This document shows positions 9,226 to 54,811 of a DNA stretch of 64,000 nt, piece after piece. How positions within the stretch are numbered: position 1 is the stretch's first letter; every line of letters starts with the position of its first letter. Under the pieces are notes generated by a model that did not search any database, was not told the DNA's origin, and saw only the letters and a program-made list of their open reading frames with translations. Origin of the DNA: Phaeobacter sp. J2-8. Its GTDB lineage: Bacteria > Pseudomonadota > Alphaproteobacteria > Rhodobacterales > Rhodobacteraceae. The position numbers and the translations under genes are program-made. The DNA lies in assembly GCF_022867865.1 (NCBI RefSeq), contig NZ_JALIEC010000002.1:620001-684000 (forward strand), in the 5' to 3' direction.

Positions 9226-9283
9226 CTTCTTCTGTTCAAAAATATCCCGGGGGAGTCGCCCCGGCGACGGGGGCAGAGCCCCC
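9226..9283 (-). repeat. Dispersed structured intergenic repeat, copy A
   Basis: Located between the mccB stop and the mccA start, in the orientation of transcription. Reading along the transcript it starts with a small hairpin GGGGGC-TCT-GCCCCC, then a variable stem (GTCGCC with GGCGAC), then the constant block CCCGGGATATTTTTGAAC followed by AGAAGAAG. Three further copies occur in this window (30769, 47890, 54754). It lies 26 bases before mccA, so it cannot be a complete terminator if mccA is co-transcribed with mccB. Confidence 0.85.
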
Positions 9284-9289
9284 AATTTC

Positions 9290-10897
9290 TTACATCCGGA
9301 ACACGCCAAAACGTGTCTCCTCGATCGGGGCGTTCAAGGCCGCATTCAGGCTGAGTGCCAGCACGTCGCGTGATTTGCGCGGGTCAATGATCCCGTCATC
9401 CCAAAGCCGTGCGCTGGCATAAAGCGGATGGCTCTGTTCCTCGAACATGTCGATCGTCGGTTGCTTGAACGCGGCCTCTTCCGCTTCGCTCCAGCTCCCG
9501 CCGGAGCGCTCGATCGCGTCGCGTTTCACCGTCGCCAGCACGCCCGCCGCCTGCGGTCCGCCCATCACCGAAATCCGGCTGTTGGGCCAGGTCCACAGGA
9601 ACCGCGGCTGATAGGCCCGCCCCGCCATACCGTAATTGCCCGCACCAAAGGAGCCACCAACCAACATGGTGATCTTGGGCACCGAGGTGCTGGCCACCGC
9701 CGTCACCATCTTGGCGCCATGCCGGGCGATGCCCTCGTTTTCATATTTCCGCCCGACCATGAAGCCGGTGATGTTTTGCAGGAACACCAGTGGCGTTTTC
9801 CGCTGCGAGCACAATTCGATGAAATGCGCGCCCTTTTGGGCGGCTTCGGAAAACAGCACGCCATTGTTGGCGATGATGCCCACCGGGCAGCCGCGCACAT
9901 GGGCAAACCCGGTCACCAGCGTTTCGCCAAACCGGGGTTTGAATTCATCAAAGCGGGATCCATCGACCAGCCGGGCAATCACTTCGCGGATGTCATAGGG
10001 TGTGCGCAGATCCGCCGACACCACGCCAAGGATTTCTTCCGGGTCATAGGCCGGTTCTTCGCTGGTCTCCAAGGTCAGGCTGCATTGGTTCCGGGCACCG
10101 CCCAACGATCCCACCGCACGCCGCGCCAGCGCCAGCGCATGGGAATCGTCCTCGGCCAGATAATCCGCCACCCCCGACAGGCGCGTATGCACATCACCAC
10201 CGCCCAGATCCTCGGCGCTCACCACCTCGCCCGTGGCGGCCTTGACCAATGGCGGACCCGCCAGAAAGATCGTACCCTGTTCGCGCACAATGATGGTCAC
10301 ATCCGACATCGCCGGCACATAGGCACCACCAGCGGTACAGGACCCCATGACAACCGCAATCTGGGCGATCCCCTTGGCCGACATCCGCGCCTGATTATAG
10401 AAAATCCGCCCGAAATGGTCGCGATCCGGGAACACCTCGTCCTGATTGGGCAGGTTCGCGCCGCCGCTGTCGACCAGATAGATGCAGGGCAGATGGTTTT
10501 CCTCGGCGATCTCCTGGGCACGCAGGTGCTTCTTGACCGTCATCGGATAATAGGTGCCGCCCTTCACCGTGGCATCATTGCAGACCACCATGACCTGACG
10601 GCCCATGACCCGGCCAATGCCGGCAATCGCCCCGCCACCCGGCGCGGCACCACCGTACATGCCATGCGCAGCCGTGGCCCCGACCTCAAGAAACGGCGAA
10701 CCGGGATCAAGCAGGTTTGCCACCCGGTCGCGCGGCAACATCTTCCCCCGGTCAAGATGGCGCTGGCGCGATTTTTCACCGCCGCCCGCCATCGCGGCTT
10801 CTGCCGCTTGCCTGACGATATCAAGGCTCTCCAGATGCGCGGCCCGGTTTGTCTTGGCCACATCGGACCCGGCAACATACGTCGTTTGCAGTTTCAT
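9290..10897 (-). CDS. mccB: Methylcrotonyl-CoA carboxylase, carboxyltransferase beta subunit
   Basis: Transfers CO2 from carboxybiotin to 3-methylcrotonyl-CoA. It has the acyl-CoA carboxyltransferase fold with both crotonase-like halves. Conserved segments include [36 protein letters not shown] typical of MCC beta, and [20 protein letters not shown]. The 535 residues match the family. It follows the secreted unknown gene after a 94-base gap and precedes mccA. Confidence 0.95.
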
Positions 10898-10949
10898 TTT
10901 CCGTCCCTCTCAGGTGTCGCTACGCGGCTATTGGGGTCACTTGTCATTT

Positions 10950-11006
10950 CTGGCCGATTGATTTTTGGGCCGACTGAATTCCTGGGCCAACTCATTGTTC
11001 GGGCCG
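10950..11006. repeat. Degenerate 17-base tandem repeat
   Basis: Three consecutive 17-base units (10950-10966, 10967-10983, 10984-11000) and a fourth partial unit share the pattern GGGCC-A-CT-ATT--T. They span the short gap upstream of mccB and run into the 3' end of the neighbouring gene, whose stop is at 10992. No function is evident; replication slippage is a simple origin. Confidence 0.6.
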
Positions 11007-22879: not shown

Positions 22880-23887
22880 ATGACAGTCAAACTCATCGAC
22901 CCGTTTCAACGCCCGATTTCCTATCTCAGGGTCTCGGTCACCGACCGCTGCGATTTCCGCTGTGTCTATTGCATGGCCGAGAACATGACATTCCTGCCGA
23001 AAAAGGAATTGTTGACGCTGGAGGAGCTGGACCGCATGTGCAGCACCTTCATCGGCCTCGGGGTCGAGAAACTGCGCATCACCGGCGGTGAACCGCTGGT
23101 GCGCCGCGACATCATGACGTTTTTCCGCGCCATGACCCGCCATCTCGACAGTGGCGCGTTGCAGGAACTGACCCTGACAACCAATGGCAGCCAGCTGGAA
23201 CGATTTGCCGATCAGCTGTTTGACGCCGGTGTCCGCCGGGTGAACGTGTCGCTGGACACGCTGGACGAAGACAAATTTGCCCGCGTCACCCGCTGGGGCC
23301 GCCTGCCCCAGGTGTTGCGCGGCATTGATGCGGCCCAGGCTGCGGGGCTGCGGTTGAAAATCAACGCCGTGGCCCTAAAAGGGTTCAACGAGGATGAGCT
23401 GTTCACCCTGACGGAATGGTGTGCCAGCCGCGACATTGACCTGACGTTTATCGAGGTCATGCCAATGGGGGATCTCGGCAATGAAGACCGCATCGGCCAA
23501 TATTGGTCGCTTGACGATCTGCGCGGCCAACTGGCCCAGAACTACACCCTGATCGACCTGCCCGAGCGCACCGGCGGCCCGGCACGTTACGTGCAGCTTC
23601 AGGAAAGCGGCCAGAAAATCGGCTTTATCACGCCCCTGACCCATAATTTCTGTGAAAGCTGCAATCGCGTGCGGCTGACCTGCACCGGGGAATTGTTCAT
23701 GTGTCTTGGCCAGGAGGACAACGCCGATCTGCGCGCCGCCCTGCGCAACCATCCCGACAGCAATGTGCCGCTAGAGGCCGCGATCCGCGATGCAATCTCG
23801 CTCAAGCCCAAGGGCCATGATTTCGACTATTCCCGCCAACGCGCCGATGGTCAGGTCAGCCGCCACATGAGCCACACAGGCGGCTGA
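22880..23887 (+). CDS. moaA: GTP 3',8-cyclase, molybdenum cofactor biosynthesis
   Basis: Radical SAM enzyme that turns GTP into 3',8-cyclo-GTP in the first step of Moco synthesis. N-terminal cluster [12 protein letters not shown] (CxxxCxxC) follows [10 protein letters not shown]. The second, GTP-binding cluster is in [12 protein letters not shown] plus a third Cys near LFMCLGQ. The protein ends with the conserved Gly-Gly (SHTGG). ATG at 22880 ([12 protein letters not shown]) gives 335 residues. No other moa gene is adjacent. Confidence 0.96.
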
Positions 23888-23949
23888 TCCGTCGCGGCGC
23901 CGCTGACCGGAAACCCGGGGCCCCGCCCGGACCCTGCCCAGACCCCGGT

Positions 23950-23986
23950 CTTCTTCTCTTTTTAAAATACGCAAATCCGACCCCCG
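23950..23986 (-). repeat. Possible divergent fifth member of the structured intergenic repeat
   Basis: CTTCTTCTCTTTTTAAAATA followed by GCAAATCCGACCCCCG sits 3' of the minus-strand glycosyltransferase-like gene, the same relation as copies A-D. It shares the CTTCTTCT edge and the AT-rich core, but not the exact GATATTTTTGAAC block or the GGGGGC hairpin. It may be a related element or chance. Confidence 0.3.
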
Positions 23987-24067
23987 AACCAGGACCAGAG
24001 CCAGTGTTCTGCGTTTTCTTTGGGCTCCGGCGCGGGGGCATCTTTGGTCAGGCCCGGTTTTATTAGA

Positions 24068-24862
24068 TCAGGCCCAGTCCGGCCCCAAATCCGCACGCGC
24101 GCGATCAATCCAATGGTCCCGCAACCAGCCACAGGGTTTGGAATAGCGAATGAACTGGCCGGTATAGCCATCCACCGCATCCGGCATCTTGGGGCGGCCA
24201 TGAAAACACACCACCCGCGCCTTATCCGGCAGCCGCGGTGACATCAGGTAATTGCGCGGAAACGGGTTGCAATCATACTTATAGCTCACCACCCATTCGC
24301 CGGGGATATAGTCAAACACCCCGTTGTCCATCGCCTTGTGCGAGGTATAGCGCTGCTCTGACCCGCGGGCCTTTTCCACCTCGTCATATGGGTTGGCCGC
24401 CAGATCGCGGTACAGAAATCCATGCTCGCCCGGATCAAACCGAAACACCGATCCATGGCCGGTGGGGCGACCTTTGCGCTTTTCTGTCCAGTCATGGCGC
24501 ATGGCAATCTTGCCCGGTGACATCTGCCAGATCGGCGTCAGATCGCCGGTGATCACCACGTCCAGATCAAACCCAAGCACCGGCCCTTCCAGATCAGGCA
24601 CCAGATCGGGGCGAAACAGCGACACCTTGCGCATTGCACCCTGCCGGTTGGCCACCGCCAGCGCAGCATTCATCGGCTCCGAAAAGGGTTCAACCGGCAG
24701 GTCGAGCACTTCGATATCCGGGTGCAAGCCGTCGGTTTCCTCGGTCATGCAGAAAAACCGCACCGGGGCGTCGATATTGCGCCGCACCCCAGAGTACAGC
24801 CGATTGACATATTCCGGCCCGAACAAGGTGCCCCATTTGATGCACATGATATTGGCGACCAC
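24068..24862 (-). CDS. Glycosyltransferase-like protein of unknown specificity
   Basis: A 264-residue cytosolic protein. IMCIKWGTLFGPEYVNRLY and PVLGFDLDVVITGDLTPIW resemble the nucleotide-sugar-binding core of GT-A enzymes, with DLD as a DxD-like metal motif; a later VVCFHGRPKMPD is typical of this group. GTG at 24862 is used because AAGGAG lies 6 bases upstream; the ATG five codons later is possible. It stands alone, convergent with moaA. The acceptor and sugar are unknown. Confidence 0.65.
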   Translation of the reverse strand: MVANIMCIKWGTLFGPEYVNRLYSGVRRNIDAPVRFFCMTEETDGLHPDIEVLDLPVEPFSEPMNAALAVANRQGAMRKVSLFRPDLVPDLEGPVLGFDLDVVITGDLTPIWQMSPGKIAMRHDWTEKRKGRPTGHGSVFRFDPGEHGFLYRDLAANPYDEVEKARGSEQRYTSHKAMDNGVFDYIPGEWVVSYKYDCNPFPRNYLMSPRLPDKARVVCFHGRPKMPDAVDGYTGQFIRYSKPCGWLRDHWIDRARADLGPDWA

Positions 24863-24930
24863 GGGCGACTCCTTTTTCTGTTGCCTGCGACTTAGCGCGT
24901 ATTGCCGCTGCATACCAGTCGGGCGCGACA

Positions 24931-24967
24931 TTTCTGCACAGCAGCATTTATTGTGCAGGTGCAGAAA
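24931..24967 (+). promoter_or_regulatory. CTGC-N3-GCAG box and larger inverted repeat upstream of the DUF2934 gene
   Basis: CTGCACAGCAG (24934-24944) matches the CTGC-N3-GCAG pattern reported for the polyhydroxybutyrate regulator PhaR of Rhodobacter sphaeroides. It lies within a larger inverted repeat whose arms TTTCTGCAC (24931-24939) and GTGCAGAAA (24959-24967) are perfect. PhaR control is inference; the literature pattern is recalled, not looked up. Confidence 0.4.
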
Positions 24968-24980
24968 TCCTGCTACGTTC

Positions 24981-24999
24981 GTTAGCGCTAACTTATACT
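24981..24999 (+). promoter_or_regulatory. LacI-type palindrome and -10 box of the DUF2934 gene
   Basis: GTTAGCGCTAAC (24981-24992) is a perfect 12-base palindrome with the central GCGC usual for LacI-family sites. It resembles the site recalled for the carbon-metabolism regulator CceR of Rhodobacter. A good -10 hexamer TATACT (24994-24999) follows directly, so a bound protein would block RNA polymerase. There is no good -35. Confidence 0.5.
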
Positions 25000-25020
25000 G
25001 TGACGAAGGGGGAAATCACC

Positions 25021-25461
25021 ATGACCACAGCCCAGAATACAAACCAAACCGTCGACACCGCCGCCATTGCCGAAGCTGCGTTTTACATCTGGCTGAACGA
25101 TGGCCAGCCGCATGGATGCGAACAGGATCATTGGCTTCGCGCAGAGGCCGCTTTGCGCGCGCCCAAAGCCGCGCCGAAAAAGCGCCGCGCACCGGCGAAA
25201 TCTGCGGCTGCAAAAACCGCCCCCAAATCTGCTGCCCCTAAAGCTGCCGCCAAAACCGAAGCACCGGCCAAAGCCGCGACAAAGACCGCTGTGAAGACCC
25301 CGGCAAAAGCAGCGGCAAAAACCACAGCCAAAGCCCCAGCGAAAACTCCAGCCAAAACTTCGGCCAAGGCCACAACCAAAGCGCCCGCAAAAACACAGGC
25401 AAAAACACCGGCAAAAGCAGCCCCGAAAGCCGCCGCCAAGCCAACCGCCGCAAAAGGCTGA
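25021..25461 (+). CDS. DUF2934 domain protein with a histone-H1-like Lys/Ala/Pro tail
   Basis: A 146-residue protein. Residues 15-45 (AAIAEAAFYIWLNDGQPHG, then HWLRAEAAL) match the short DUF2934 motif. From about residue 50 to the end there is a continuous AAKTPAK-type repeat, strongly basic and disordered, like eukaryotic histone H1, bacterial Hc2/AlgP or the tail of PhaF. Such tails bind DNA or polyanions. ATG 25021 is preferred over 25000 because GGGGGAAATC precedes it. A role as nucleoid or granule protein is inference from composition and the upstream sites. Confidence 0.8.
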   Translation: MTTAQNTNQTVDTAAIAEAAFYIWLNDGQPHGCEQDHWLRAEAALRAPKAAPKKRRAPAKSAAAKTAPKSAAPKAAAKTEAPAKAATKTAVKTPAKAAAKTTAKAPAKTPAKTSAKATTKAPAKTQAKTPAKAAPKAAAKPTAAKG

Positions 25462-25470
25462 CATCTTCCG

Positions 25471-25497
25471 GGTGAACGGCGCGATTTGCCGTTCACC
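25471..25497 (+). terminator. Hairpin terminator after the DUF2934 gene
   Basis: GGTGAACGGC-GCGATTT-GCCGTTCACC is a perfect 10-base stem ten bases after the stop codon. It is followed by ACCCCCTT rather than a T run, so termination may need help. Confidence 0.6.
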
Positions 25498-25564
25498 ACC
25501 CCCTTGATCCGGCGCGCGCGTCGGACTAATCTAGCACGAACCCAATTCAGCGCAGGAGGGCATC

Positions 25565-25600
25565 ATGGAAATTGTGTGCACCCTGCGGGTGGCGGTCTGA
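25565..25600 (+). CDS. Possible 11-codon leader peptide upstream of rsgA
   Basis: ATG at 25565 follows a near-ideal ribosome binding site (AGGAGG, 5 bases away) but encodes only MEIVCTLRVAV before TGA. The real rsgA frame begins 69 bases after this stop with a TTG and a weak binding site. A strong initiation signal in front of such a short frame suggests a leader peptide controlling rsgA. It may also be chance. Confidence 0.35.
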   Translation: MEIVCTLRVAV

Positions 25601-25668
25601 TCCGCTGTCCGGGCCGAAATCATGCTTGAACCCCAAGCATTCGATCTTCCTGATACGGGACAAAACCA

Positions 25669-26706: not shown

Positions 26707-26834
26707 GGGTTCGCTTGATGTGCCCGCCCCCGTCAACCGCGCCTGATCTTTGATCTGGGGTCGCGTTGCATGGGCCAAATGCTTCGATCAAAAACGGGGT
26801 GCGCGTGACCTGCGCACCCCAGCTCACGCGCCCG

Positions 26835-30519: not shown

Positions 30520-30546
30520 GAATGCGGCCTTGTATTTTGCCGCAAC

Positions 30547-30570: not shown

Positions 30571-30603
30571 ACCAAAAAATTCAATTTCTTTCAATACGTT
30601 ACA

Positions 30604-30621: not shown

Positions 30622-30768
30622 ATTCACCGACATCGCGCGCCCCGTCCGCTAACCCCGCAAGAAGAAACAAAAACACCGGGTTTGCCGCCTCGGCGAATTT
30701 CGCGCGCCAGGTCGCTTTCGTGTCAGGAATGCAACAAAGCCAACCACCGCCTGCAACCGGGTGCCCTG

Positions 30769-30832
30769 CTTCTTCTGTTCAAAAATATCCCGGGGGAAAT
30801 TGTGGCCTGCCACAATTGGGGGCAGCGCCCCC
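30769..30832 (-). repeat. Dispersed structured intergenic repeat, copy B
   Basis: It lies 3' of pntB in the same orientation. Along the transcript: hairpin GGGGGC-GCT-GCCCCC, then a variable stem CAATTGTGGC-AG-GCCACAATT, then the constant CCCGGGATATTTTTGAAC and AGAAG. The variable stem differs in sequence from copy A but is paired in both, which points to selection on structure. Confidence 0.85.
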
Positions 30833-30854
30833 GTTTGACCTGCGCAAGAAGAAG

Positions 30855-30878
30855 CCTCCCCGAATTGCTCCGGGAAGG
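30855..30878 (-). terminator. Hairpin terminator downstream of pntB
   Basis: On the minus strand CCTTCCCG-GAGCAATT-CGGGGAGG pairs over 8 bases with one G-T wobble and is followed by CTTCTTCTT. It lies 43 bases after the pntB stop and just before repeat copy B. Confidence 0.55.
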
Positions 30879-30920
30879 CCATTGTGACTGTCAACAGCGG
30901 CGTATGTGCCGCCGTCAATC

Positions 30921-44679: not shown

Positions 44680-46191
44680 ATGCTTGACCTGACATATGAC
44701 GCACCGAAGCCCAAGGTTATTGCCGGGGCCAAGCATGACTGGGAACTGGTGATCGGCATGGAGGTCCATGCCCAGATCTCGTCCAACGCCAAGCTGTTCT
44801 CTGGCGCATCAACGCAATTCGGGGCCGAACCAAACGCCAATGTGGCCTTTGTTGACGCGGCGATGCCCGGCATGTTGCCGGTGATCAACGAATATTGCGT
44901 TGAACAGGCGGTGCGCACCGGTTTGGGCCTGAAGGCGGAAATCAACCTGAAGTCGGCCTTTGACCGCAAGAATTACTTCTACCCGGATCTGCCGCAGGGC
45001 TATCAGATCTCGCAGCTGTATGAACCGCTGGTGGGTGAAGGCGAGGTTCTGGTGGAATTGGGCGACGGCATCGCGCGGCTGGTGCGGATCGAACGCATCC
45101 ACATGGAACAGGACGCCGGCAAATCCATCCACGACATGGACCCCAACATGTCCTTTGTCGATCTCAACCGCACCGGTGTGGCGCTGATGGAAATCGTCAG
45201 CCGCCCCGACATTCGTGGCCCCGAAGAGGCCGCGGCCTATGTCGTCAAGCTGCGCCAGATCCTGCAATATCTGGGCACCTGTGACGGCAACATGCAAAAC
45301 GGCAGCATGCGCGCCGATGTCAACGTGTCTGTCTGTCTGCCCGGCCAATACGAGAAATATCAGGCGACGCAGGATTTCAGCCACCTCGGCACCCGCTGCG
45401 AGATCAAGAACATGAACTCGATGCGGTTCATTCAGGCCGCGATCGACTTTGAGGCCAAGCGCCAGATTGCCCTGCTGGAAAGTGGCGGCACCGTGGATCA
45501 GGAAACCCGGCTTTATGATGCGGACAAGGGTGAAACCCGGTCGATGCGGTCCAAGGAAGAGGCGCATGATTACCGCTACTTCCCCGATCCCGATCTGCTG
45601 CCGCTGGAAATCGAACAGGGCTGGGTTGATGACATTGCGGCCACCCTGCCGGAACTGCCGGACGCCAAAAAGGCACGGTTCATCAAGGACTTTGGCCTGT
45701 CCGACTATGACGCCAGCGTGTTGACCGCCGAAACCGTATCCGCGAACTATTTTGAAAAAGTGGCGGATGGCCGCGATGGCAAGATGGCCGCGAACTGGGT
45801 GATCAATGAATTGTTTGGTCGCCTGAAAAAGGATGACCGCGATCTGGCGGATTGCCCGGTCACGCCGGACCAATTGGGCGGTATCATCACCCTGATCCAA
45901 AAGGGTGACATCAGCGGCAAGATCGCCAAGGATCTGTTCGAAATCGTCTATACCGAAGGCGGTGACCCGGCCGAGATCGTCGAAGCCCGTGGCATGAAGC
46001 AGGTGACCGACACCGGAGCAATCGAGGCCGCCGTGGATGAGGTGATCGCCGCCAACCCCGCTCAGGTGGAAAAGGCACGTGCCAATCCGAAGCTGGCAGG
46101 CTGGTTTGTGGGTCAGGTGATGAAAGCCACCGGCGGCAAGGCCAACCCCAAGGCCGTGAACGAAATCGTGGCCGCCAAACTGGCACAGTAA
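44680..46191 (+). CDS. gatB: Aspartyl/glutamyl-tRNA(Asn/Gln) amidotransferase subunit B
   Basis: Part of GatCAB, which converts Glu-tRNA(Gln) to Gln-tRNA(Gln). It begins with the signature [20 protein letters not shown]. The conserved [20 protein letters not shown] and [16 protein letters not shown] are present, with a GatB/YqeY tail ([18 protein letters not shown]). It has 503 residues, with GCAGGAGA as ribosome binding site. GatA and GatC lie elsewhere, as is usual in alphaproteobacteria. Confidence 0.97.
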
Positions 46192-46350
46192 CAGGCGTTT
46201 CATCAAAACGCCCATTCCTTGGACTTTGCGCATTGGTGCAAGGTCCGGGGACCAAATTCCGTGATCGGAATTTGCAAAAATCCCTGAAGATTTTTGTCCA
46301 GCGCTGTGGCGATGTTGCGCTTTAACGGCATTTATGATTTTGGACCCGAC

Positions 46351-46812
46351 ATGACGACATATGAGTACAAGGTGGTGCCGGCCCCTGACCGGGGGCGCAA
46401 GGCACGGGGTGTAAAAGGTGCAGATGGGCGGTTTGCCCATGCGCTGGAAGATGCATTGAACGAACTTGCGGCCGAAGGTTGGGAATATCAGCGCGCCGAG
46501 ACCCTGCCCAGCGAGGAACGTCAGGGCCTCTCGGGCAAGGCCACGGTTTTCCGCAATGTTCTGGTGTTTCGCCGCGCGCGGGACGCCGATCTGGCGGATT
46601 TTGAACCCCGGCTTCTGGACCCACCCCAGGATACGCCACGGCAGGAGCTGCCAAAAGACATCCCCGTTCTGGATGCCGCGCGCATTCTGGCCGAAGAGAA
46701 AACGCCAGAGACCGCAGCGCAGCCGGACACGCCAGAGCCGAGCAGCCCGCCCGCCCCTGATGCCGTGGCCCCCGGCGACGCGACGCGCCCCGAAGGTCCG
46801 GCCAAAGACTGA
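46351..46812 (+). CDS. DUF4177 domain protein
   Basis: A 153-residue protein. MTTYEYKVVPAPDRG starts the short DUF4177 fold, continuing with DALNELAAEGWEYQRAETLP and a final strand VFRNVLVFRR. The C-terminal 70 residues are Pro/Glu/Ala-rich and likely disordered. ATG 46351 is chosen because the fold begins there; upstream residues are unlike it. The function of the family is unknown. Confidence 0.8.
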   Translation: MTTYEYKVVPAPDRGRKARGVKGADGRFAHALEDALNELAAEGWEYQRAETLPSEERQGLSGKATVFRNVLVFRRARDADLADFEPRLLDPPQDTPRQELPKDIPVLDAARILAEEKTPETAAQPDTPEPSSPPAPDAVAPGDATRPEGPAKD

Positions 46813-46818
46813 TCCGGT

Positions 46819-46866
46819 TTTGGCACTGTCTTTGGACCCGGCTTTGGACCTGTCTTTGGTGTTGCG
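46819..46866. repeat. Four 12-base imperfect tandem units
   Basis: TTTGGCACTGTC, TTTGGACCCGGC, TTTGGACCTGTC and TTTGGTGTTGCG run head to tail in the gap between the convergent DUF4177 and bolA genes. It resembles the short-period repeats at 10950 and inside pepN. Confidence 0.6.
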
Positions 46867-46899
46867 CCCCTAAGGGTCAGGACGCTCAAGGATCAGGAT

Positions 46900-47160
46900 C
46901 TAGGGCACATCGAGGTCCAGCGTCAGCGCATGGATCGCGCCGACAAGCTCTGCCCCCAAGGCAGAATGCACCGCGCGATGCCGGGCGATACGCGACTGCC
47001 CCTCAAAGGCGGCACTGCGCAGGCGGACACGAAAATGGCTCTGGCCACCCTCTTGGTATCCGGCGTGCCCACGATGCGCCTCGCTTTCGTCTTCAACACT
47101 CAATTCGACCGGCGCAAAGACCGTATCAAGGCGTTGGCGGATTTCTTCTGAACGTTTCAT
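46900..47160 (-). CDS. bolA: BolA family protein
   Basis: An 86-residue BolA/IbaG-fold protein, which in other bacteria pairs with monothiol glutaredoxins in Fe-S or iron handling. SEEIRQRLDTVFAP, the loop ESEAHRGHAGYQ with the characteristic histidines, SHFRVRLRSAAFEGQSRIARH and HRAVHSALGAEL cover the fold. It is divergent from the J-protein, 75 bases between starts. Confidence 0.93.
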   Translation of the reverse strand: MKRSEEIRQRLDTVFAPVELSVEDESEAHRGHAGYQEGGQSHFRVRLRSAAFEGQSRIARHRAVHSALGAELVGAIHALTLDLDVP

Positions 47161-47235
47161 GAAATTTTTCCGGGCCCCTTCCCTCTGGTCCTCAATGGTC
47201 TAAACTGCCACGTCCGAGTCGAAAAGGTGCGCGCT

Positions 47236-47868
47236 ATGAGTAAATCAGACCCATTCGGATTCGATATGTCCGTATCATCCGCCAAGAAGAAAAATCCACG
47301 TGGTCGGCGTGGTATGTCCGGGGCATCCGAGACCTCGCAGCGGGTCTGCGATCTTGATGGCTGCGAAGAGCGCGGGCTCTATCGTGCGCCCAAGGCGCCC
47401 GATGTGCTGGATGATTATTTCTGGTTCTGCAAGGAACACATTCGCGAATATAACGCGCGGTGGAGCTTCTTTGAGGGCAAGACAGAAGCCGAGATGAATG
47501 CGCAGGAAACATCCGACAAGGTGTGGGAGCGCAAGACCAAGGATTTCCGCGACCCCGAGGCCAAGGCCTGGGCGCGGCTGGGCATTGAAGACCCGCATCA
47601 GGTTCTGGGTGAAAATGCCACCCGCAATCCCGGACGCAACCCCAGCACCCCAAGCCGACGTTTGCCGCCCACCGAACGGCGTGCGATCGAAATTCTTGAG
47701 GCCCGTGAAAGCTGGACCAAGGTTCAGATCCGCAAATCCTACAAGGCGCTGATCAAGGTGCTGCACCCCGACATGAACGGCGGGGACCGATCGCAGGAAG
47801 AACAGCTGAACGAAGTGATGTGGGCCTGGGAACAGGTCAAGGACAGCCGGAACTTCGCTGACAAGTAA
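47236..47868 (+). CDS. J-domain (DnaJ-like) molecular chaperone, Rhodobacterales/cob-linked type
   Basis: A 210-residue protein with the J domain at the C-terminus (about 150-210): KVQIRKSYKALIKVLHPDMNGG carries the HPD that stimulates DnaK. The N-terminal part has a possible metal-binding knuckle, CDLDGCEERG followed by FWFCKEHIREYN. Proteins of this build often lie directly upstream of cobS in this bacterial family; here 2.8 kb separates them. ATG 47236 (MSKSDPFGFD) is used. Confidence 0.87.
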   Translation: MSKSDPFGFDMSVSSAKKKNPRGRRGMSGASETSQRVCDLDGCEERGLYRAPKAPDVLDDYFWFCKEHIREYNARWSFFEGKTEAEMNAQETSDKVWERKTKDFRDPEAKAWARLGIEDPHQVLGENATRNPGRNPSTPSRRLPPTERRAIEILEARESWTKVQIRKSYKALIKVLHPDMNGGDRSQEEQLNEVMWAWEQVKDSRNFADK

Positions 47869-47889
47869 TCTGCGCCGATCCAGGTGAAT

Positions 47890-47947
47890 GGGGGCTCTGC
47901 CCCCGTCGCCAAGGCGACCCCCCCGGGATATTTTTGAACAGAAGAAG
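47890..47947 (+). repeat. Dispersed structured intergenic repeat, copy C
   Basis: It begins 22 bases after the J-protein stop in the same orientation. Parts: GGGGGC-TCT-GCCCCC, variable stem GTCGCC-AA-GGCGAC, then CCCGGGATATTTTTGAAC and AGAAGAAG. It may also serve as terminator between the convergent J-protein and msrB genes. Confidence 0.85.
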
Positions 47948-47971
47948 CCTTGGGGTGATCCGCCCCCGGGG

Positions 47972-48457
47972 CTAGGCTGCGCGGAATTTCAGGGAGACGC
48001 CATTCAGGCAATGGCGCATGCCGGTTGGTTTCGGGCCATCGTCAAAGATATGCCCCAGATGCGATCCGCAGCGGCGGCAATGGCATTCCGTGCGGGTGGC
48101 AAACAGCGACCGGTCTTCTTTTGTGCCAATTGCATCGGGCAGAGATTGCCAGAAGCTGGGCCAGCCGGTGCCGCTGTCGAATTTGTGGGCTGAGGCATAG
48201 ATTTCCAGGTCGCAGCCACGGCACAGGTAGGTGCCTTTGGTTTTCCGGTCATGCAACGGCGAGGAAAAGGCGCGTTCGGTGTCTTCCTGTCGCATCACGG
48301 CATATTGCGCATCGCTGAGCATTGCGCGCCATTCCGCATCGGTGCGGGTGATTTCGAAGCTGCCTGTCGCGGCTTGCAAGGCAAGGGGCGATCCGCCGAC
48401 AGCCAATGTGGCGGTCGCGGCGGAGGCGGTCAGAAATCGGCGTCTTGAGAATGTCAT
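47972..48457 (-). CDS. msrB: Peptide-methionine (R)-S-oxide reductase, Tat-exported
   Basis: Repairs methionine-R-sulfoxide in proteins. TFSRRRFLTASAATATLAVG is a twin-arginine signal, so this copy should work in the periplasm. The zinc knuckles are LCRGCDLEIY and HCRRCGSHLGHIF. GWPSFWQSLP is conserved, and the catalytic Cys is in RHCLNGVSLKF. It has 161 residues from ATG 48457. It is last in the minus-strand block with fasciclin, anti-sigma and ECF sigma genes. Confidence 0.92.
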   Translation of the reverse strand: MTFSRRRFLTASAATATLAVGGSPLALQAATGSFEITRTDAEWRAMLSDAQYAVMRQEDTERAFSSPLHDRKTKGTYLCRGCDLEIYASAHKFDSGTGWPSFWQSLPDAIGTKEDRSLFATRTECHCRRCGSHLGHIFDDGPKPTGMRHCLNGVSLKFRAA

Positions 48458-48610
48458 GTCGGGCTCCTCTGACAGATTGTGGCGATGTTTGGCTTGGGTG
48501 GGCCAGTATTCATGTCCCGCCCCGGCACAGATGCGCCGAGGCGGGCATTGAATCGCGTTATCCGGGTGTGTGTGCGCGGCGCGATCCAATGTTTCGGCAA
48601 CCAGCGTGGT

Positions 48611-49180
48611 TTACATCGCAGGCAGCAGAACCGTGTCGATCACATGGATTACGCCATTGGATTGTTTGACGTCGGCGATTGTCACCTTGGCCATACGGCC
48701 GCGTTCGTCTTCGAGCGTGATTTCATCACCGGAATAGGTCGCCTGCAACGTGCAGCCGCCCACCGTTGGCACCGGATGTTTGCCGTTGTCGTCGTCGATC
48801 ATACCTTTGATCGCCATCGACATCGCATCCGCCGACACCACATGGCAGGTCAGGATCTTGGTCAGCTGATCCTTGTTTTCCGGCTTCAGCAGGGTTTCCA
48901 CGGTCCCGCCTGCCAATTTGTCGAATGCGGCATTGGTCGGGGCAAAGACCGTGAACGGGCCTTCGCCCATCAATGTGTCGACCAGACCGGCCGCCTTGAC
49001 TGCGGCGACAAGCGTGGTGTGATCCGCAGAGTTCACCGCGTTTTCGACGATGTTCTTGTCCGCGAACATGGCCGCGCCGCCCACCATTGGATTGCCGGTT
49101 TCCGCATGGCTTTCGGCGAAAGCAAAGGTGGTGGTCACAGCAAGGGCCACGGCGGTCAGAGTGGTTTTGGCGAAAGTCAT
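48611..49180 (-). CDS. Secreted fasciclin-domain protein
   Basis: A 189-residue exported protein: signal peptide MTFAKTTLTAVALAVTTTFA, then one FAS1 domain (residues 50-185) with GEGPFTVFAPTNAAFDKL and the end NGVIHVIDTVLLPAM. FAS1 proteins act in adhesion or surface sensing. Genes for a fasciclin, an anti-sigma and an ECF sigma factor often stand together; the sigma factor is likely to transcribe this gene. GTTACCATG with AGGAG upstream sets the start. Confidence 0.9.
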   Translation of the reverse strand: MTFAKTTLTAVALAVTTTFAFAESHAETGNPMVGGAAMFADKNIVENAVNSADHTTLVAAVKAAGLVDTLMGEGPFTVFAPTNAAFDKLAGGTVETLLKPENKDQLTKILTCHVVSADAMSMAIKGMIDDDNGKHPVPTVGGCTLQATYSGDEITLEDERGRMAKVTIADVKQSNGVIHVIDTVLLPAM

Positions 49181-49240
49181 GGTAACTCCTGTCAGTCTTG
49201 CGAGGCCGTTGTGGCCACGCTCAGGAGTAGAGACGCAGGC

Positions 49241-49265
49241 GGTGGCGCAAAAGTTTCGCGCCACC
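49241..49265 (-). terminator. Hairpin between anti-sigma and fasciclin genes
   Basis: GGTGGCGC-N9-GCGCCACC is a perfect 8-base stem 14 bases after the anti-sigma stop. It may end or attenuate the sigma operon, leaving the fasciclin gene to its own ECF promoter. Confidence 0.45.
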
Positions 49266-49278
49266 GATCACAAAGACA

Positions 49279-49971
49279 TCACGTCGCCGTGATGACCCCG
49301 GTGGCCAGCACCGCGCCAGTGGGCAGGCCAGTGGGTGAGCCGCCGGCGGGCTCGTCCGAAATCGCCAGAACAGCGCCATCCAGCGCGCCCCGCAGCGGAT
49401 CAGGCACCGCAAGGGCCACAACAACGCCGGGGCTGAGCAGACCCAGCGACACCGGTGCATTGTCGCCCTGGATCAACCAAAGCTCGCGCGCGCGGCCATC
49501 CTCCGGGAAGGCTCCGATCAATTCCGCCGTCAATGCGCCGCTGTCTGCATCAAGCTCGATCCGGGCCACATTTTCAGCGGCCTCTGTGGTCAGCGCAGCC
49601 GTATAGGGCGCGCTGTCCGGTTCCAGCCAGCCAAATTGCACCACGGCCAGCGCCAGGCCAGCGGCCAAAGCGCCGCCCAAAACCGCCTGCCCCAGTCCAA
49701 GCCCCGCCCCAAGACGTCGCCACAGCGGTTTGCGCGCACCGAACAATCGGGTTTCAACCGAGGTCCAGATCCCGTCCGGCGCAGGCACCGGGTCGAGATC
49801 GGCGGCCAGCTCGGCAAAATGCTCTGTCCAGGTGTCGCAGAGATCGCGCAATGCCGGTTCCCGCACCATCCGCCGGGCCACGTCGCGCGCGGCATCCTCG
49901 GACAACAGGCCAAGCACGTATTCCGCTGCAAGAACGGAATCGTTATCGGGTATGTCGGTTGCGTCACTCAT
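49279..49971 (-). CDS. Anti-sigma factor (RskA/ChrR-like, membrane-anchored)
   Basis: A 230-residue protein. Residues 10-75 form an anti-sigma helical domain (SVLAAEYVLGLLSEDAARDVA). One transmembrane segment lies near residues 90-113 (GLGQAVLGGALAAGLALAVV). The periplasmic part resembles the RskA C-terminal domain (ARELWLIQGDNAPVSLGLLS). ATG 49971 shares a base with the sigma stop (TAATG). It should hold the ECF factor at the membrane until an envelope signal arrives. Confidence 0.9.
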   Translation of the reverse strand: MSDATDIPDNDSVLAAEYVLGLLSEDAARDVARRMVREPALRDLCDTWTEHFAELAADLDPVPAPDGIWTSVETRLFGARKPLWRRLGAGLGLGQAVLGGALAAGLALAVVQFGWLEPDSAPYTAALTTEAAENVARIELDADSGALTAELIGAFPEDGRARELWLIQGDNAPVSLGLLSPGVVVALAVPDPLRGALDGAVLAISDEPAGGSPTGLPTGAVLATGVITAT

Positions 49972-50519
49972 TAACTCAGACAAGCCTTCAAAGATTGCAG
50001 ACTGCGGCGCAGCCAGGTTCGCATGGTATTCAGCGGCACCGCAAACTGCGCTGCCAATTCAGCATAGCTGGCCCCTTCAAGATAGGCCAACCGGACCGCC
50101 GCGGATTTTTCGGCGGCCAGTTCGTCAAGGCAGGCTTCGATCCGGGCGCGCTCGCCCTTTTGGGCAAGCTGCTCGGCCGGGCCGGGGTCGGGCGATTCCA
50201 GACGGTCGATCAGGCTTTCGTCGCCATCGGCCCGCCCTTCTCCGGCGCGATTGCGCCGCAACACGTCAATGGCATGGTTGCGCGCCACGGTGATCAGCCA
50301 GGTCATCGGCCGCACGCGACCGGGTTGATAGGCCTCGGCGCGCTGCCAGATCTTGACATAGACCTCCTGCAACGCGTCCTCTGCCTGTGCCCTGTCCCGT
50401 AAGATACGCAGGCAGAGTCCAAAAAGTTTCGCGGATGTTGCAGAATAAAGTGCGGAAAATGCTTTGCGGTCGGCCATGGAGACCCGCGCCAACAAATCAT
50501 CAAGGTCCTGCGTCGTCAC
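49971..50519 (-). CDS. ECF-type RNA polymerase sigma factor
   Basis: A 182-residue group IV sigma factor. Region 2 is AFSALYSATSAKLFGLCLRI with DALQEVYVKIWQ, then MTWLITVARNHAIDVLRRN. Region 4 includes LDELAAEKSAAVRLAYLEGASYAELA with a helix-turn-helix ending TMRTWLRRSLQSL. GTG at 50519 is used as start (VTTQDLDDLL); the frame upstream is not sigma-like. It is coupled to its anti-sigma and transcribed away from cobS. Confidence 0.92.
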   Translation of the reverse strand: MTTQDLDDLLARVSMADRKAFSALYSATSAKLFGLCLRILRDRAQAEDALQEVYVKIWQRAEAYQPGRVRPMTWLITVARNHAIDVLRRNRAGEGRADGDESLIDRLESPDPGPAEQLAQKGERARIEACLDELAAEKSAAVRLAYLEGASYAELAAQFAVPLNTMRTWLRRSLQSLKACLS

Positions 50520-50689
50520 GGTGATGCCCCCGGTGTCTGATTGAGCCTGACGATAGAGCGCGATGCGGTGGTGGCAAGGCCCGTTTCGAAACCAACCCGG
50601 CAATTCTGGTCCCCGCTCTTGCCACTGCTGCGAATATGGTGCACGAACCGTGACGCAAAACACGAGTTGAGACCGAAAAGGACGCGGCC

Positions 50690-51676
50690 ATGGCGGACGG
50701 CACGATGGACCCAAATATGAGACCCTCTGAAGAGATCTCGGTGCGCGATGTGTTCGGCATCGACACTGACATGATGGTCAAGGGCTTTGCCGAGCGCAGC
50801 GATCGCGTGCCGGATGTGGACCAGACCTACAAGTTTGATCCCGATACCACATTGGCGATCCTGGCCGGGTTTTCCCACAATCGCCGGGTGATGATCCAAG
50901 GCTATCACGGGACGGGCAAATCGACCCACATCGAACAGGTCGCCGCACGGCTGAACTGGCCTGCGGTGCGCGTCAACCTCGACAGTCACATTTCCCGGAT
51001 CGACCTGATCGGCAAGGATGCGATCAAGTTGAAGGACGGCGTGCAGGTCACCGAGTTTCAGGAAGGTATCCTGCCCTGGGCGCTGCGCAACCCGACCGCG
51101 ATTGTGTTCGACGAATATGATGCCGGCCGCGCCGATGTGATGTTCGTGATCCAGCGCGTGCTGGAGGTTGACGGCAAGCTGACGCTGCTCGACCAGAACC
51201 AGGTGATCAACCCGCACCCCTATTTCCGTATCTTTGCCACGTCCAACACCGTGGGTCTCGGCGATACCACCGGGCTGTATCACGGGACGCAACAGATCAA
51301 CCAAGGCCAGATGGACCGCTGGTCGCTGGTGGCGACGCTGAACTATCTGTCGATTGATGCGGAATGCGCGATCATTCTGGCGAAATGCCCGCATTACAAC
51401 ACCGAAAAAGGCCGCAAGACCGTCAAACAGATGGTCACTGTAGCGGACCTTTCGCGTACCGCCTTCATGAACGGGGATCTGTCGACGGTGATGTCGCCAC
51501 GGACCGTGATTGCCTGGGCGCAAAACGCCGAGATCTTCCGCAATGTCGGCTATGCCTTCCGGGTGTCGTTCCTCAACAAATGTGACGAGCTGGAACGCCA
51601 GACCGTGGCGGAATTCTATCAGCGCTGCTTTGACGAGGAACTGCCAGAGAGCGCCGCGAGCCTCGCATTGGGCTGA
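50690..51676 (+). CDS. cobS: Cobaltochelatase subunit CobS (AAA+)
   Basis: ATPase part of CobNST, which inserts cobalt into hydrogenobyrinic acid diamide in aerobic vitamin B12 synthesis. Walker A is [14 protein letters not shown] and Walker B is [33 protein letters not shown] and [14 protein letters not shown] are typical of CobS. It has 328 residues. It precedes cobT, but 1.17 kb with two small genes lies between them. No cobalamin riboswitch is visible upstream. Confidence 0.96.
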
Positions 51677-51815
51677 CCGCTCTTTGGGCCCTTGCGGGCC
51701 CGCATCGCGAAGACAGCCCGCAAGGGACTGAATGAGCAGCGCCCAATGGGCGCTGTTTCTGCATGTGCAGCCGTGCTGAAACCACAACAACGGCAAAAGT
51801 TTTCATAACGCCCAA

Positions 51816-51844
51816 TTCTTGACGCATTAATCTTGTGATATGCT
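51816..51844 (+). promoter_or_regulatory. Promoter candidate of the first small secreted gene (leaderless)
   Basis: TATGCT lies 6 bases before the ATG, and TTCTTG lies 17 bases further upstream. There is no ribosome binding site, so the transcript may start at the start codon. Confidence 0.4.
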
Positions 51845-51850
51845 TCAATT

Positions 51851-52240
51851 ATGAGCGGTGTGAAAACTTTAATGAGTTTCGTTGCGCTGGTGGTGACCTC
51901 AACCTCTCTGCCAGCGCAGCCGACAACGGCGCCAGGTCCGGCCCATCTGTTTGCGACCTGTACTGGGCGGTTGTCGGCCTGGATGGAACATCAATGGATG
52001 TTTGATGGGCCAGGATCAGAGCACACAGCACGCCAACGGGAGCAGATGATGGGGCTGCTTGGCGCGGTCACCCCGCCCGGCAAAGGGCGCGAAATCCTGC
52101 ATCTCAGGATAGATGCCAAAATGGCCCTCGCCAGTCTGCTGACCCGCGCCACATTTTCCGACGATACCCGCGAAGCCCGACGGGCCAGTAAAATGGTTCA
52201 GATCAGGCTTTCGGAATGCACCGGCTTGTTGCTGAGTTGA
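51851..52240 (+). CDS. Small secreted protein of unknown function (paralogue 1)
   Basis: 129 residues with signal peptide MSGVKTLMSFVALVVTSTSL. The mature part has two Cys (FATCTGRLSAWMEHQWM near its start and LSECTGLLL at its end) that could form a disulfide joining the ends of a helical bundle. It aligns by eye with the next gene in these positions. There is no Shine-Dalgarno sequence. No family is recognised. Confidence 0.7.
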   Translation: MSGVKTLMSFVALVVTSTSLPAQPTTAPGPAHLFATCTGRLSAWMEHQWMFDGPGSEHTARQREQMMGLLGAVTPPGKGREILHLRIDAKMALASLLTRATFSDDTREARRASKMVQIRLSECTGLLLS

Positions 52241-52306
52241 TGTGCTGAAATTCCGGGCACCGCCGCCCTATGCGGCCTTCCCCAACCACTTCGTATATAC
52301 TTTGTA

Positions 52307-52336
52307 TTGACCTGAACTATACCCGTGTCGTAAATT
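52307..52336 (+). promoter_or_regulatory. Promoter candidate of the second small secreted gene (leaderless)
   Basis: TTGACC, an 18-base spacer and TAAATT end 6 bases before the ATG. No ribosome binding site is present. The arrangement repeats that of the previous gene. Confidence 0.5.
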
Positions 52337-52342
52337 CGTTAC

Positions 52343-52744
52343 ATGGTACGGAAGCTTCGCCCTCTTGCGGCGGCGGCTCTTCTGAATGCGTTGACCCTGT
52401 CCGCCGCCTTTGCATCTCCGCCCCCTGCGGGCGACAGAGCAGAGGCGTTTGCGGTCTGCGCCGGCAGGCTCTGGGCGCTGTCGGTGCAACAGGCGGCGGT
52501 GGGCGATCCCGCGCATGAAACCACCCGGCGCATGCGGTCCGATTTCGATATGCTGTTGGATGCGGTGATTGGTGACGCGGAAAACAACCGACAGGCACAG
52601 CGATGGCGCACCGATGGTTGGGTGCAAATGGCCCATCTTCTGGCGCGGCACCAATATGGCGACACCGCGCGGCGGCGTGACATGGCAGCGGCGCGCATGG
52701 CGTCCCGCATCAACACCTGCCGTCGCATGATCCTTGGCGGGTAG
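52343..52744 (+). CDS. Small secreted protein of unknown function (paralogue 2)
   Basis: 133 residues with signal peptide MVRKLRPLAAAALLNALTLS and probable cleavage near AFA-S. FAVCAGRLWALSVQQ, RMRSDFDMLLDAV and ARMASRINTCRRMIL match FATCTGRLSAWMEHQ, RQREQMMGLLGAV and KMVQIRLSECTGLLL of the previous gene, so the two probably arose by duplication. Both genes lie between cobS and cobT. Confidence 0.72.
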   Translation: MVRKLRPLAAAALLNALTLSAAFASPPPAGDRAEAFAVCAGRLWALSVQQAAVGDPAHETTRRMRSDFDMLLDAVIGDAENNRQAQRWRTDGWVQMAHLLARHQYGDTARRRDMAAARMASRINTCRRMILGG

Positions 52745-52847
52745 CTGAGCGCAGAAATTGCAGTCAGGAAAACGCATCCGCTCTCTGGCCATTGCCCGCC
52801 TGCATCACTAGGGTGACGCCGTTGAAAACCACTTCCGCAGGCATTCC

Positions 52848-54722
52848 ATGGCGCAGACCGACAACCCCGCAGATCCGTTCAAGAAAGCCCTGGCCGAAGC
52901 CACCAAGGTGATGGCGGACGATCCTGAATTGACCGTCAGCTATTCGGTGGACCCGTCCGGGGTGTCCGGCGATGCCATGCGCCTGCCCCAAGTCAGCCGC
53001 CGGATGAGCCGCGACGAGGTTCTGTTGGCGCGTGGCACAGCGGATGCGCTGGCCTTGAAACACAAGTATCACGACGCCAAGACCCACGCGCGTTATGCCC
53101 CGCCCGGTGACATCGCCCGCGATCTGTACGAGTTCGATGGAAACCGCCCGCTGCGAGGCCGTCGGCGCACGCGACATGCCCGGCACCGCCGGCAACATCG
53201 ACGCCAAGATCAACGCAGATGCGCTGAAACGCGGCTATGACCAGATCAGCAAAGCCTCGGATGCGCCATTGCCAGTGGCGGCGGGCTATCTGATCCGGCA
53301 TCTGGCAACGGGTCGTGATCTGCCACCGGCGGCGGCCAATGTCATGGATCTGTGGCGCGGCTTCATCGAAGATCAGGCCGGTGGCCAGATGGAGGATCTT
53401 CAGGAATTGCTGGCCGATCAGAGCCAGTTTGCCAAATTTGCCCGGCGGATCATTCAGGATCTCGGCTATGGCGATCAGCTGGGCGAAGACCCGGATGATC
53501 TCGACGACGAGTCGGAAGATCAGGCCGAAGACAGTCAGGACGAGGATCAAGATCCGGATTCGACCGGTCAGGACGACGAACAGGACGATCAGGCCGAGGC
53601 CAACCCGGAACAAGGCCAGGAAGAACAACAAGACCCAAGCGAAGCCCAGGTCACCATGGATGACATGGCCGATCAGGAAAGCGGCGAGGAAACCGAACTG
53701 CCCGAAGGCGAGGCCCCGCTGGAGCCGCCAGCGCCCGCGCCGGTGTCGGATGCCGACCCGGATTACACGGTCTTTGCCACCGAATACGACGAAGAAATCG
53801 CCGCCGAAGATCTGGCCGATCCCGCAGAACTGGAACGGTTGCGCGACTATCTGGACCAACAATTGGAACCTTTGAAGGGCGCGGTGTCGCGTCTGGCCAA
53901 CAAGTTGCAGCGCCGTCTGCAGGCGCAGCAAAACCGATCCTGGGAATTTGACCTGGAAGAAGGCATTCTGGATGCCGGACGTCTGGCGCGGGTGGTGGCC
54001 AATCCGACCACGCCCCTGTCGTTCAAGGTCGAAAAAGACACCGAATTCCGCGATACCGTGGTGACATTGCTGTTGGATAATTCCGGCTCGATGCGGGGGC
54101 GGCCGATTTCCATTGCCGCGATCTGTGCCGATGTTCTGGCCCGGACGCTGGAACGGTGCTCGGTCAAGGTCGAGATCCTCGGCTTTACCACACGCGCCTG
54201 GAAAGGCGGGCTTTCACGGGAAAAATGGCTGGGCGAAGGCCGGATACAGCAGCCCGGACGGCTTAACGATCTGCGCCACATCATCTATAAACGTGCCGAT
54301 GCGCCCTGGCGTCGGGCGCGGCCCAATCTGGGGCTGATGATGAAAGAAGGCCTGTTGAAGGAAAACATCGACGGCGAGGCGCTGGAATGGGCGCACCGCC
54401 GCATGGTGGGCCTGCCGAAGCGCGCAAGATCCTGATGGTGATTTCCGATGGCGCGCCGGTCGATGACAGCACTCTGTCGGTCAATCCGGCGAATTTTCTG
54501 GAAAAACACCTGCGTGACGTGATTGCCATGGTGGAACGGCGGCGGGCGGTGGAACTGCTGGCGATTGGGATCGGCCATGATGTGACGCGCTATTACGACC
54601 GCGCAGTGACCATCACCGATGTGGAACAATTGGCGGGGGCCATGACCGAGCAATTGGCGGCCTTGTTTGACACAGACCCACGTGCACGCGCGCGGGTGAT
54701 GGGGATGCGCAAGACCGGATAG
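52848..54722 (+). pseudogene. cobT: Cobaltochelatase subunit CobT, broken by two single-base indels
   Basis: VWA-domain partner of CobS in aerobic cobaltochelatase. The protein runs through three frames. Frame one (from ATG 52848) ends in IARDLYE; an extra T at 53133-53134 shifts the rest, and [20 protein letters not shown] continues in frame two. Frame two runs through a long acidic Glu/Asp/Gln linker and the MIDAS motif [11 protein letters not shown] to RRMVGLP. A missing G near 54417 shifts to frame three, [20 protein letters not shown], ending MRKTG. Correcting both gives 624 residues, the normal length. Two opposite indels in an otherwise perfect gene suggest sequencing error. Confidence 0.9.
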
Positions 54723-54753
54723 GCCGAAAGCTGGGTGTTGCGGGCGATCAGAA

Positions 54754-54811
54754 GGGGGCCAGCCCCCTCGGCCTGCGGCCTCACCCCCGGGATATTTTTG
54801 AACAGAAGAAG
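54754..54811 (+). repeat. Dispersed structured intergenic repeat, copy D
   Basis: It lies 31 bases after the cobT stop, same orientation, and ends 14 bases before the next gene. Parts: GGGGGC-CA-GCCCCC (one base shorter loop), variable stem CGGCC-TG-CGGCC-like, then CCCGGGATATTTTTGAAC and AGAAGAAG. Confidence 0.85.

Follow-up and report, generated by a model that had tools for sequence, protein, structure and literature searches.

A palindromic repeat at gene ends in Phaeobacter sp. J2-8 and candidate small RNA genes that carry a copy of its tail

Results

Four Copies of One Repeat in the Window

The window, a stretch of 64,000 nucleotides (nt) from Phaeobacter sp. J2-8 (contig NZ_JALIEC010000002.1, positions 620,001 to 684,000), contains four copies, A to D, of a palindromic intergenic repeat that an earlier note had described from the sequence alone. 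The 18-base constant block CCCGGGATATTTTTGAAC is exact at 9234-9251 and 30777-30794 on the minus strand and at 47922-47939 and 54786-54803 on the plus strand, and the hairpins described in the note stand upstream of it in all four. No fifth site was found in the window when up to three mismatches were allowed and, with a mean of 0.05 in shuffled sequences, the four copies are real. All have two hairpins and a tail of the class that we call T1. Copy A (9225..9284, minus strand; C10:629225-629284; 86.1 bits with the covariance model R1 introduced below) lies between two co-directional genes, presumably mccB and mccA, and copy B (30768..30833, minus strand, 75.2 bits) downstream of a presumed pntB and of a terminator-like site. 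Copy C (47889..47948, plus strand, 85.8 bits) lies between convergent genes, and copy D (54753..54812, plus strand, 64.2 bits) follows a gene called at 54387-54722 (the earlier note presumed cobT here) and precedes one called at 54898, the open reading frame (ORF) of which runs from 54826.

A fifth member of the family, at 23950..23978 on the minus strand between convergent genes, consists of GGATTTGCG, TATTT and a tail of class T4 (AAAAGAGAAGAAG) without a GC hairpin (pattern match at C10:643951-643969). The terminator-like site between pntB and copy B (30853..30880, minus strand; 12 pairs followed by TCTTCTTGCG) lies outside the element, which shows that copy B is additional to it. Among 30 orthologous loci compared by eye, most (uncounted) have a GC stem followed by a T-run at pntB, and the element is extra and sporadic. 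No match to Rfam 15 reached the gathering score anywhere in the window; one of seven element loci gave two sub-threshold matches, to a plant microRNA model.

A Modular Repeat Family

The element is a palindromic unit of about 45 to 65 nt, composed of hairpins, the motif GGRTATTT and a tail of about 11 nt. It comes in two architectures, with either one hairpin (GGGGGC..GCCCCC, a short spacer and a second C-run) or the same plus an intervening second, variable stem. The module 5' of the tail is of three kinds (G-run hairpins; GCCTCCGGCGGG; and GGATTTGCG without a GC hairpin) and four tail classes are found in the own genome (T1, GAACAGAAGAAG; T2, GGTCAGATGAA; T3, ACCAAGAAGAA; T4, AAAGAGAAGAAG), modules and classes occurring in mixed combinations. 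The constant block of the earlier note, exact in the four window copies, was drawn too short: at all 28 exact genome matches of CCCGGGATATTTTTGAAC (27 distinct places, two matches being a contig overlap) the constant part extends to AACAGAAGAAG, an extension for which the 18-mer query did not select.

Model R1, built from 13 genome copies, gave 140 own-genome matches at E values of up to 1. We examined 134 of these, leaving out of the counts the 6 weakest, for which no DNA was fetched; two of the 134 are contig-overlap duplicates, so that 132 are distinct. The tail pattern TATTT-N(3-7)-AGANGAA matched 170 times in the own genome, compared with 4 for the reversed pattern. Among 120 genomes of the family Rhodobacteraceae, 94 contained the pattern GGGGN(6,36)CCCCGNNRTATTT (reversed control, 0 to 3 per genome), and of 41 genomes searched with R1, 20 contained the element (19 in the family and one in another). 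Named records with the element include Leisingera, Thalassococcus, Antarctobacter, Loktanella, Marinibacterium and Tritonibacter plasmids. Searching the genome, as the earlier note had proposed, yielded more than 100 copies at gene 3' ends, with compensated stems. A stretch of a Tritonibacter megaplasmid gave zero matches with the search pattern yet has a BLAST match inside, and the pattern is therefore too narrow; a near search on the same stretch gave no close-species series. Phage records, and viral contigs searched by exact pattern, contained no match to the element.

Tandem arrays of a unit of about 32 nt (GGGGGGCCAGCCCCCCAAACCRCAGGAYAGAT) stand upstream of one-hairpin copies at eight loci (L092, L096, L100, L119, L130, L147, L159 and L165), and other one-hairpin copies have an additional hairpin, GTCGCGCC..GGCGCGCCGACAGG, whose variants are apparently compensated. 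Identical stretches around copies near contig ends (C5:77.9k and C10:727.2k; C8:1.6k and C15:190.8k; all of G000) suggest assembly overlaps between these contigs.

Putative RNA Genes Enclosed by Tail Pairs

Ten pairs of tails in the fetched loci of the own genome lie no more than 300 nt from each other, and every one of them is arranged tail to tail. Paired units have inverted ends and solo copies do not. Among close pairs, four own ones with G-run modules and one in genome G005 are spaced by 20-21 nt, and the remaining ones by 23, 32 and 6 nt. Where the distance is 132-167 nt (four own pairs and one in G009), the pair encloses a sequence that is homologous between the loci; a 64-nt pair does not. 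The enclosed sequence has an upstream TTAA stretch, then a hairpin, GCGGTACAGGC-NGGGAN-GCCGATGACCGC, and after it a motif copying the local tail with one A-to-G change. We treat this unit as a putative small RNA gene, with the conserved hairpin GCGGUACAGGC..GCCGAUGACCGC followed by the guide-like motif.

A second covariance model, R2, built from five loci and run with filters that lose weak matches, finds four RNA genes in the own genome, one per tail class. That of class T1, the class of the four window copies, is at C10:412960-413041, about 207 kb before the window, and the others are at C10:719760-719841 (T2), C17:16189-16269 (T3) and C6:20611-20692 (T4). The key partner gene, whose inner motif matches the tail, thus lay beyond the view of the earlier note. 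The RNA core had zero Rfam matches up to E 1 in five loci. Close to the T3-class gene there is a cobalamin riboswitch (98.7 bits; L162 903-1125, minus strand, G000:C17 near 15.3 kb).

Between one and four RNA genes were found by R2 in 93 of the 120 family genomes. The same genomes divide into 86 with both RNA genes and elements, 19 with neither, 7 with RNA genes only and 8 with elements only, seven RNA-negative genomes in this comparison being assigned by elimination; the 8 elements-only genomes have at most 3 pattern matches each. In the taxonomic class as a whole, 6 of 289 genomes had a match, three of them outside the family.

Across 53 loci, the RNA hairpin pairs in 99.4% of cells (shuffles, 91.2%), in an alignment that was fitted to the model and hence leans toward pairing. 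G-U pairs are present, and 5 of 9 pairs show changes on both sides. The pattern is as expected for an RNA that would function on this strand, unlike that of the solo-element stems. In the predicted folds of seven loci, the motif is the 5' side of a long stem whose other side comes from the flanking inverted tail and which ends just before AAATA. Standard pairs make up 497 of 517 in this guide-arm stem, compared with 71% with the arms swapped, a figure inflated because the arms were chosen as the best match to the guide; the fair control is the swapped-motif search described below.

The neighbors of the syntenic RNA locus, an acyl-CoA dehydrogenase, GST and a thiolase, recur at 10 loci. After clustering the neighbors of 33 RNA loci, we scanned eight proteins, of which six are metabolic and two have no assignment. 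Near the acyl-CoA dehydrogenase, a protein of about 70 amino acids adjoins the RNA gene at L314, L391, L397, L399, L400, L408, L411, L412, L413 and L415, with no Pfam match in the two copies scanned; the RNA loci L389 and L394 also adjoin an acyl-CoA dehydrogenase.

Motif and Tail Change Together

We parsed 50 RNA loci, 4 own and 46 from other genomes; of the 3 among 53 not parsed by the regular expression, L417 and L431 match by eye and L433 was unread. The 11-base motif was within 2 mismatches of the best left site in 48 of the 50 and of the best inverted right site in 43, compared with 3.3% of 884 tests, on either side, when motifs were swapped between loci. TATTT precedes 46 of the 48 matched left sites (the exceptions are L419 and L430), and in 44 of the 48 the A-to-G change falls on the fifth or sixth base of the motif. 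R2 contains consensus letters of the motif, so the search favors similar motifs, but the left tail is outside the model, the alignment of which begins after it, and the 50 loci have 37 distinct motifs. At the syntenic locus the motif differs among genomes and genera, starting with AAGAGG, GCAAGG, CCAAGG, CGAAGG, CGTTGG or ACGAGG.

In the own genome, 129 of the 132 distinct R1 copies have a tail that differs from one of the four motifs at no more than 2 positions, a count that stands without a swapped control, and the other three have no intact TATTT. By class there are 66 copies of T1, 52 of T2, 10 of T3 and 1 of T4, most T4 copies escaping R1. Outside the family, the RNA core occurs with unrelated motifs in Rhizobium sp. 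007 (AAAGGGTTAGGA), G030 (ATCAAGAAATGA), G037 (AAAAGACTAGAG) and G254 (GACGGGATTTAT). In each, a TATTT-tail matches the motif within 0-2 of 12 bases, its side and orientation varying, and on a Shinella sp. XGS7 plasmid (L441) motif and tail match with 2 mismatches; these outside-family matches were counted without a shuffled control. The core hairpin itself is almost identical on the small Rhizobiales plasmids of Shinella sp. XGS7 and Roseibium (L442), where it is intergenic and near hypothetical, toxin-antitoxin or replication genes.

Stems, Run Lengths and Spread

The earlier note was right about compensatory variation: across 13 aligned genome copies, all 6 pairs of the second stem have changed on both sides. 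The 83 distinct second stems, 40 own and 43 from eight other genomes, contain 456 Watson–Crick pairs, 7 A-C and 5 other mismatches and zero G-T pairs, as called by a stem finder biased toward Watson–Crick pairs. With no G-T pairs, the selection on the RNA of that strand that the note had proposed is doubtful, and the second stems look like palindromes at the level of DNA.

Among one-hairpin copies, 61 of 67 (expected 24.8) have a G-run as long as the second C-run; in those from eight other genomes the first C-run equals the second in 36 of 40 (expected 13.4). Among two-hairpin copies, run lengths match in 36 of 48 from elsewhere (expected 24.9) and show no coupling in the own genome (46 of 60, expected 43.7; 1102 of 10,000 shuffles as high). 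Of the 132 distinct copies, 5 were unparsed for run lengths; the set from elsewhere, drawn from the matches listed, keeps the longest match per place, four of them shortened for a stray upstream G-run, and excludes one place in each of G111, G061 and G063 for want of a clear hairpin. Either selection or palindrome correction in the course of replication may explain the perfect arms and matching lengths. The folds of copies A to D place stable GC hairpins close to stop codons, and their energies are ordinary against shuffles (z from -1.8 to +1.4). Six loci whose flanks are unrelated carry identical 57-nt copies (a seventh row stems from a contig overlap); copies have therefore spread, and recently.

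Placement Relative to Genes

With gene calls from a home-made codon-usage caller, the 134 copies comprise 55 between convergent genes, 36 in tandem gaps in the sense of the genes, 32 in tandem gaps in antisense, 6 between divergent genes and 5 in overlap with a called ORF. Among gaps of 70 bp or more, those that hold a tail are 53 convergent, 69 tandem and 7 divergent (41% convergent and 5% divergent), compared with 17, 81 and 63 among those without a tail (p = 4e-14). The placement rule is therefore gene 3' ends and not orientation: the claim that copies always lie 3' of a co-oriented gene describes the four window copies and does not extend to the tandem gaps of the genome. By architecture, same-sense and antisense copies in tandem gaps stand at 23:12 for two hairpins and 11:18 for one hairpin in the own genome, and two-hairpin copies elsewhere at 9:4 (G005) and 6:3 (G009 and one G008 locus; 5:3 without a duplicate row). 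In a script-based survey of 80 named mccB loci, the copies behind mccB were antisense in 8 and sense in 4, one locus having both; depending on the genus, the mccB-mccA junction has an antisense copy near the mccB stop, a sense copy or none.

The earlier note had argued that the element is not simply a full terminator, and this stands because copies lie inside operon-like gaps, 11 of the 36 same-sense tandem copies being less than 30 nt ahead of the next start. Canonical terminators are not rarer at element-bearing gene ends: they were found at 31 of 48 convergent ends with a same-sense element, a count including matches on the element itself, and at 15 of 45 without. Terminator scans of 46000-56000 and 23000-33000 list none of copies B, C and D, copy A being outside the scans. 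An alternative stem, pairing the G-run with the second C-run, would lie closer to the T-stretch.

Discussion

The direct observations are the modules, the class-by-class match and its co-variation from genus to genus, and the joint occurrence of RNA genes with elements. A cognate link between the RNA genes and the repeats is well supported, and the two appear to evolve together. The earlier interpretation is partly supported. We give about an even chance to the explanation that an RNA-guided repeat system of gene ends exists in two parts, of which the repeat is the dispersed one. One half would be the palindromic elements dispersed at gene 3' ends and the other, as in the own genome, a small structured RNA gene for each tail class, situated between a tail-to-tail pair of elements. 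The guide-like motif would copy the tail of its class with the fixed A-to-G change, the flanking inverted tail providing the other arm of the predicted long stem. The RNA would be transcribed, RNA and tail would recognize each other by trans base pairing, and the recognition would allow an enzyme encoded by the host to copy or insert elements or to convert their tails, copies being tolerated or useful at gene ends. Propagation of elements or conversion of their tails under RNA guidance is favored because the motif and its flanking tails turn over together, identical copies have spread and orientation is free. More tentatively, and with somewhat less confidence than for the two-part system itself, we suggest that a protein-poor, RNA-guided system may write or spread tails behind gene-end hairpins: each RNA would maintain its own class of up to dozens of sites, a change of the motif would found a new class, and guide and sites would turn over together across Rhodobacteraceae and beyond.

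Several observations weigh against this explanation. No target-site duplication was seen by eye at the identical copies. At an orthologous copy in seven Leisingera strains, the 41-base core diverges by 4.2%, similar to codon positions 1 and 2 (4.8%) and far less than third positions (22.5%), which suggests a host function; the tail of this copy differs between two strain types, and the conservation of the site favors a function at gene ends. Two of the 50 RNA loci (L415 and L420) have no good left match, the accepted match at L430 has no TATTT, and the Roseibium plasmid core (L442) has no matching tail (best, 4 mismatches). Eight motif predictions were written before the sequences were read: those for G005, G013 and G019 came true, those for G008 and G012 were one base off and those for G006, G015 and G022 (one of two G022 loci read) failed. 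In the loci of other genomes, 4 tail pairs are tail to tail and 3 direct, and an RNA gene is still present in 7 of the 26 genomes without pattern matches. Computed pairing in trans does not regularly exceed the internal stem of the RNA in strength: the means are -12.7 for trans pairing and -13.3 for the stem, and of 45 cases the trans pairing is the stronger in 29 and the weaker in 12. Finally, no transposase, nuclease, recombinase or reverse transcriptase was recognized among the eight recurring neighbor proteins scanned, the genome-wide search having covered PF01797.

The conservation of the Leisingera copy also fits a different and less probable role for the RNA, that of a trans-acting regulator with a regulon. 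The RNA would pair with tails in mRNA 3' untranslated regions and control stability or termination, the repeats being its docking sites. The cognate match of motif and tails agrees with this proposal, and both orientations might be bound, the 3' arm of the RNA being complementary to sense tails and the guide arm to antisense tails. However, the motif and its flanking tails change between genera at the syntenic locus, and such a change would be hard for dozens of genes to follow; the free orientation in tandem gaps (36 vs. 32) and the identical copies at unrelated loci likewise argue against docking sites.

Two further proposals dispense with a guide and leave the RNA gene, or the match of its motif to the tail, unexplained. 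We think it improbable that the element is a gene-boundary insulator or an unusual terminator acting from either side, in which the G-run would pair with either of two C-runs, the second beside GGRTATTT, and the reversed tail, CTTCTTCT, would serve as the U-tract of a facing hairpin. The enrichment between convergent genes and the run-length coupling of one-hairpin copies, in the own and in eight other genomes, are consistent with such a device, as is the enrichment of flush facing hairpins in antisense copies (p 0.005 and 0.01). Facing hairpins are not enriched in convergent gaps, however (p 0.17 and 0.44), and the own two-hairpin copies without length coupling, the copies placed just before the next start and the terminator scans that omit copies B, C and D are at odds with it; as a general rule, the reversed tail as the U-tract of a facing terminator was rejected, flush hairpins being enriched in antisense copies only. 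Very unlikely, in our judgment, is the proposal of the earlier note that hairpins in the sense mRNA serve 3'-end protection, attenuation or RNase docking. Stable GC hairpins do lie near stop codons with an AU-rich stretch beside them, and a study of Rhodobacter sphaeroides describes a preference of RNase E for AU-rich sites (PMC6238624). Against it, 32 of the 68 tandem copies are antisense, the second stems have zero G-T pairs on that strand, and the fold energies of copies A to D are ordinary.

The searchable part of the literature yielded no description of such a system, and the articles containing the element's sequence strings are, as far as their accessible parts go, apparently unrelated. 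If the two-part explanation is true, RNA–repeat pairing occurs in most sampled genera of a large bacterial family and is undescribed in that searchable literature. It would represent either a new kind of mobile element, guided by RNA and with no resident enzyme, or a global regulon of the RNA with co-evolving sites and guide, both readings being testable in culturable marine and soil species; a naturally swapped motif would make the system a candidate programmable one.

Comparison with Known Systems

We know of no system that explains co-evolving gene-end repeats together with matching RNA genes. The REP, BIME and REPIN sequences of enterobacteria and pseudomonads are short palindromes that occur many times over, at the 3' ends of genes and seldom between divergent genes, and that form inverted pairs; the present repeat, intergenic and often in inverted pairs, shares these features. 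It differs in having a cognate RNA gene per class and no Y1 (RAYT) transposase. The Y1 domain (Y1_Tnp, PF01797) was found 0 times in the own genome (95% complete), in 0 of 16 element-rich genomes and in 2 of 16 pattern-negative genomes of the family, and membership in RAYT/REP was rejected for its absence from the own and the element-rich genomes. Of the terminal inverted repeats and target-site duplications that mark miniature inverted-repeat transposable elements (MITEs), the paired units have inverted ends and the solo copies do not, and no duplication was seen by eye at the identical ones. Intrinsic terminators share the GC hairpin followed by a T-rich stretch; here a C-run and GGR stand between stem and T-stretch, conserved sequence continues beyond, and orientation in tandem gaps is free.

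On the RNA side, trans-acting small RNAs of Rhodobacterales have, like the guide-like motif, a motif able to pair with many transcripts, but the RNA described here has no Rfam match and its gene is flanked by inverted copies of its own sites. The omega RNAs of TnpB and IscB and CRISPR guide RNAs likewise combine a constant scaffold with a variable, guide-like stretch after it. Here, no nuclease was recognized among the scanned neighbors, and the guide would correspond not to flanking target DNA but, save for the fixed A-to-G change, to the tail of the repeat itself. The bridge RNA of IS110-type insertion sequences is a structured RNA with a variable motif that matches the DNA of its own mobile element; in our case, no recombinase was recognized among the scanned neighbors, the motif copies the tail of many solo repeats, and the predicted fold differs. 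The likeness to RNA-guided mobile elements lies in the variable RNA motif, which matches element DNA at 48 of 50 loci.

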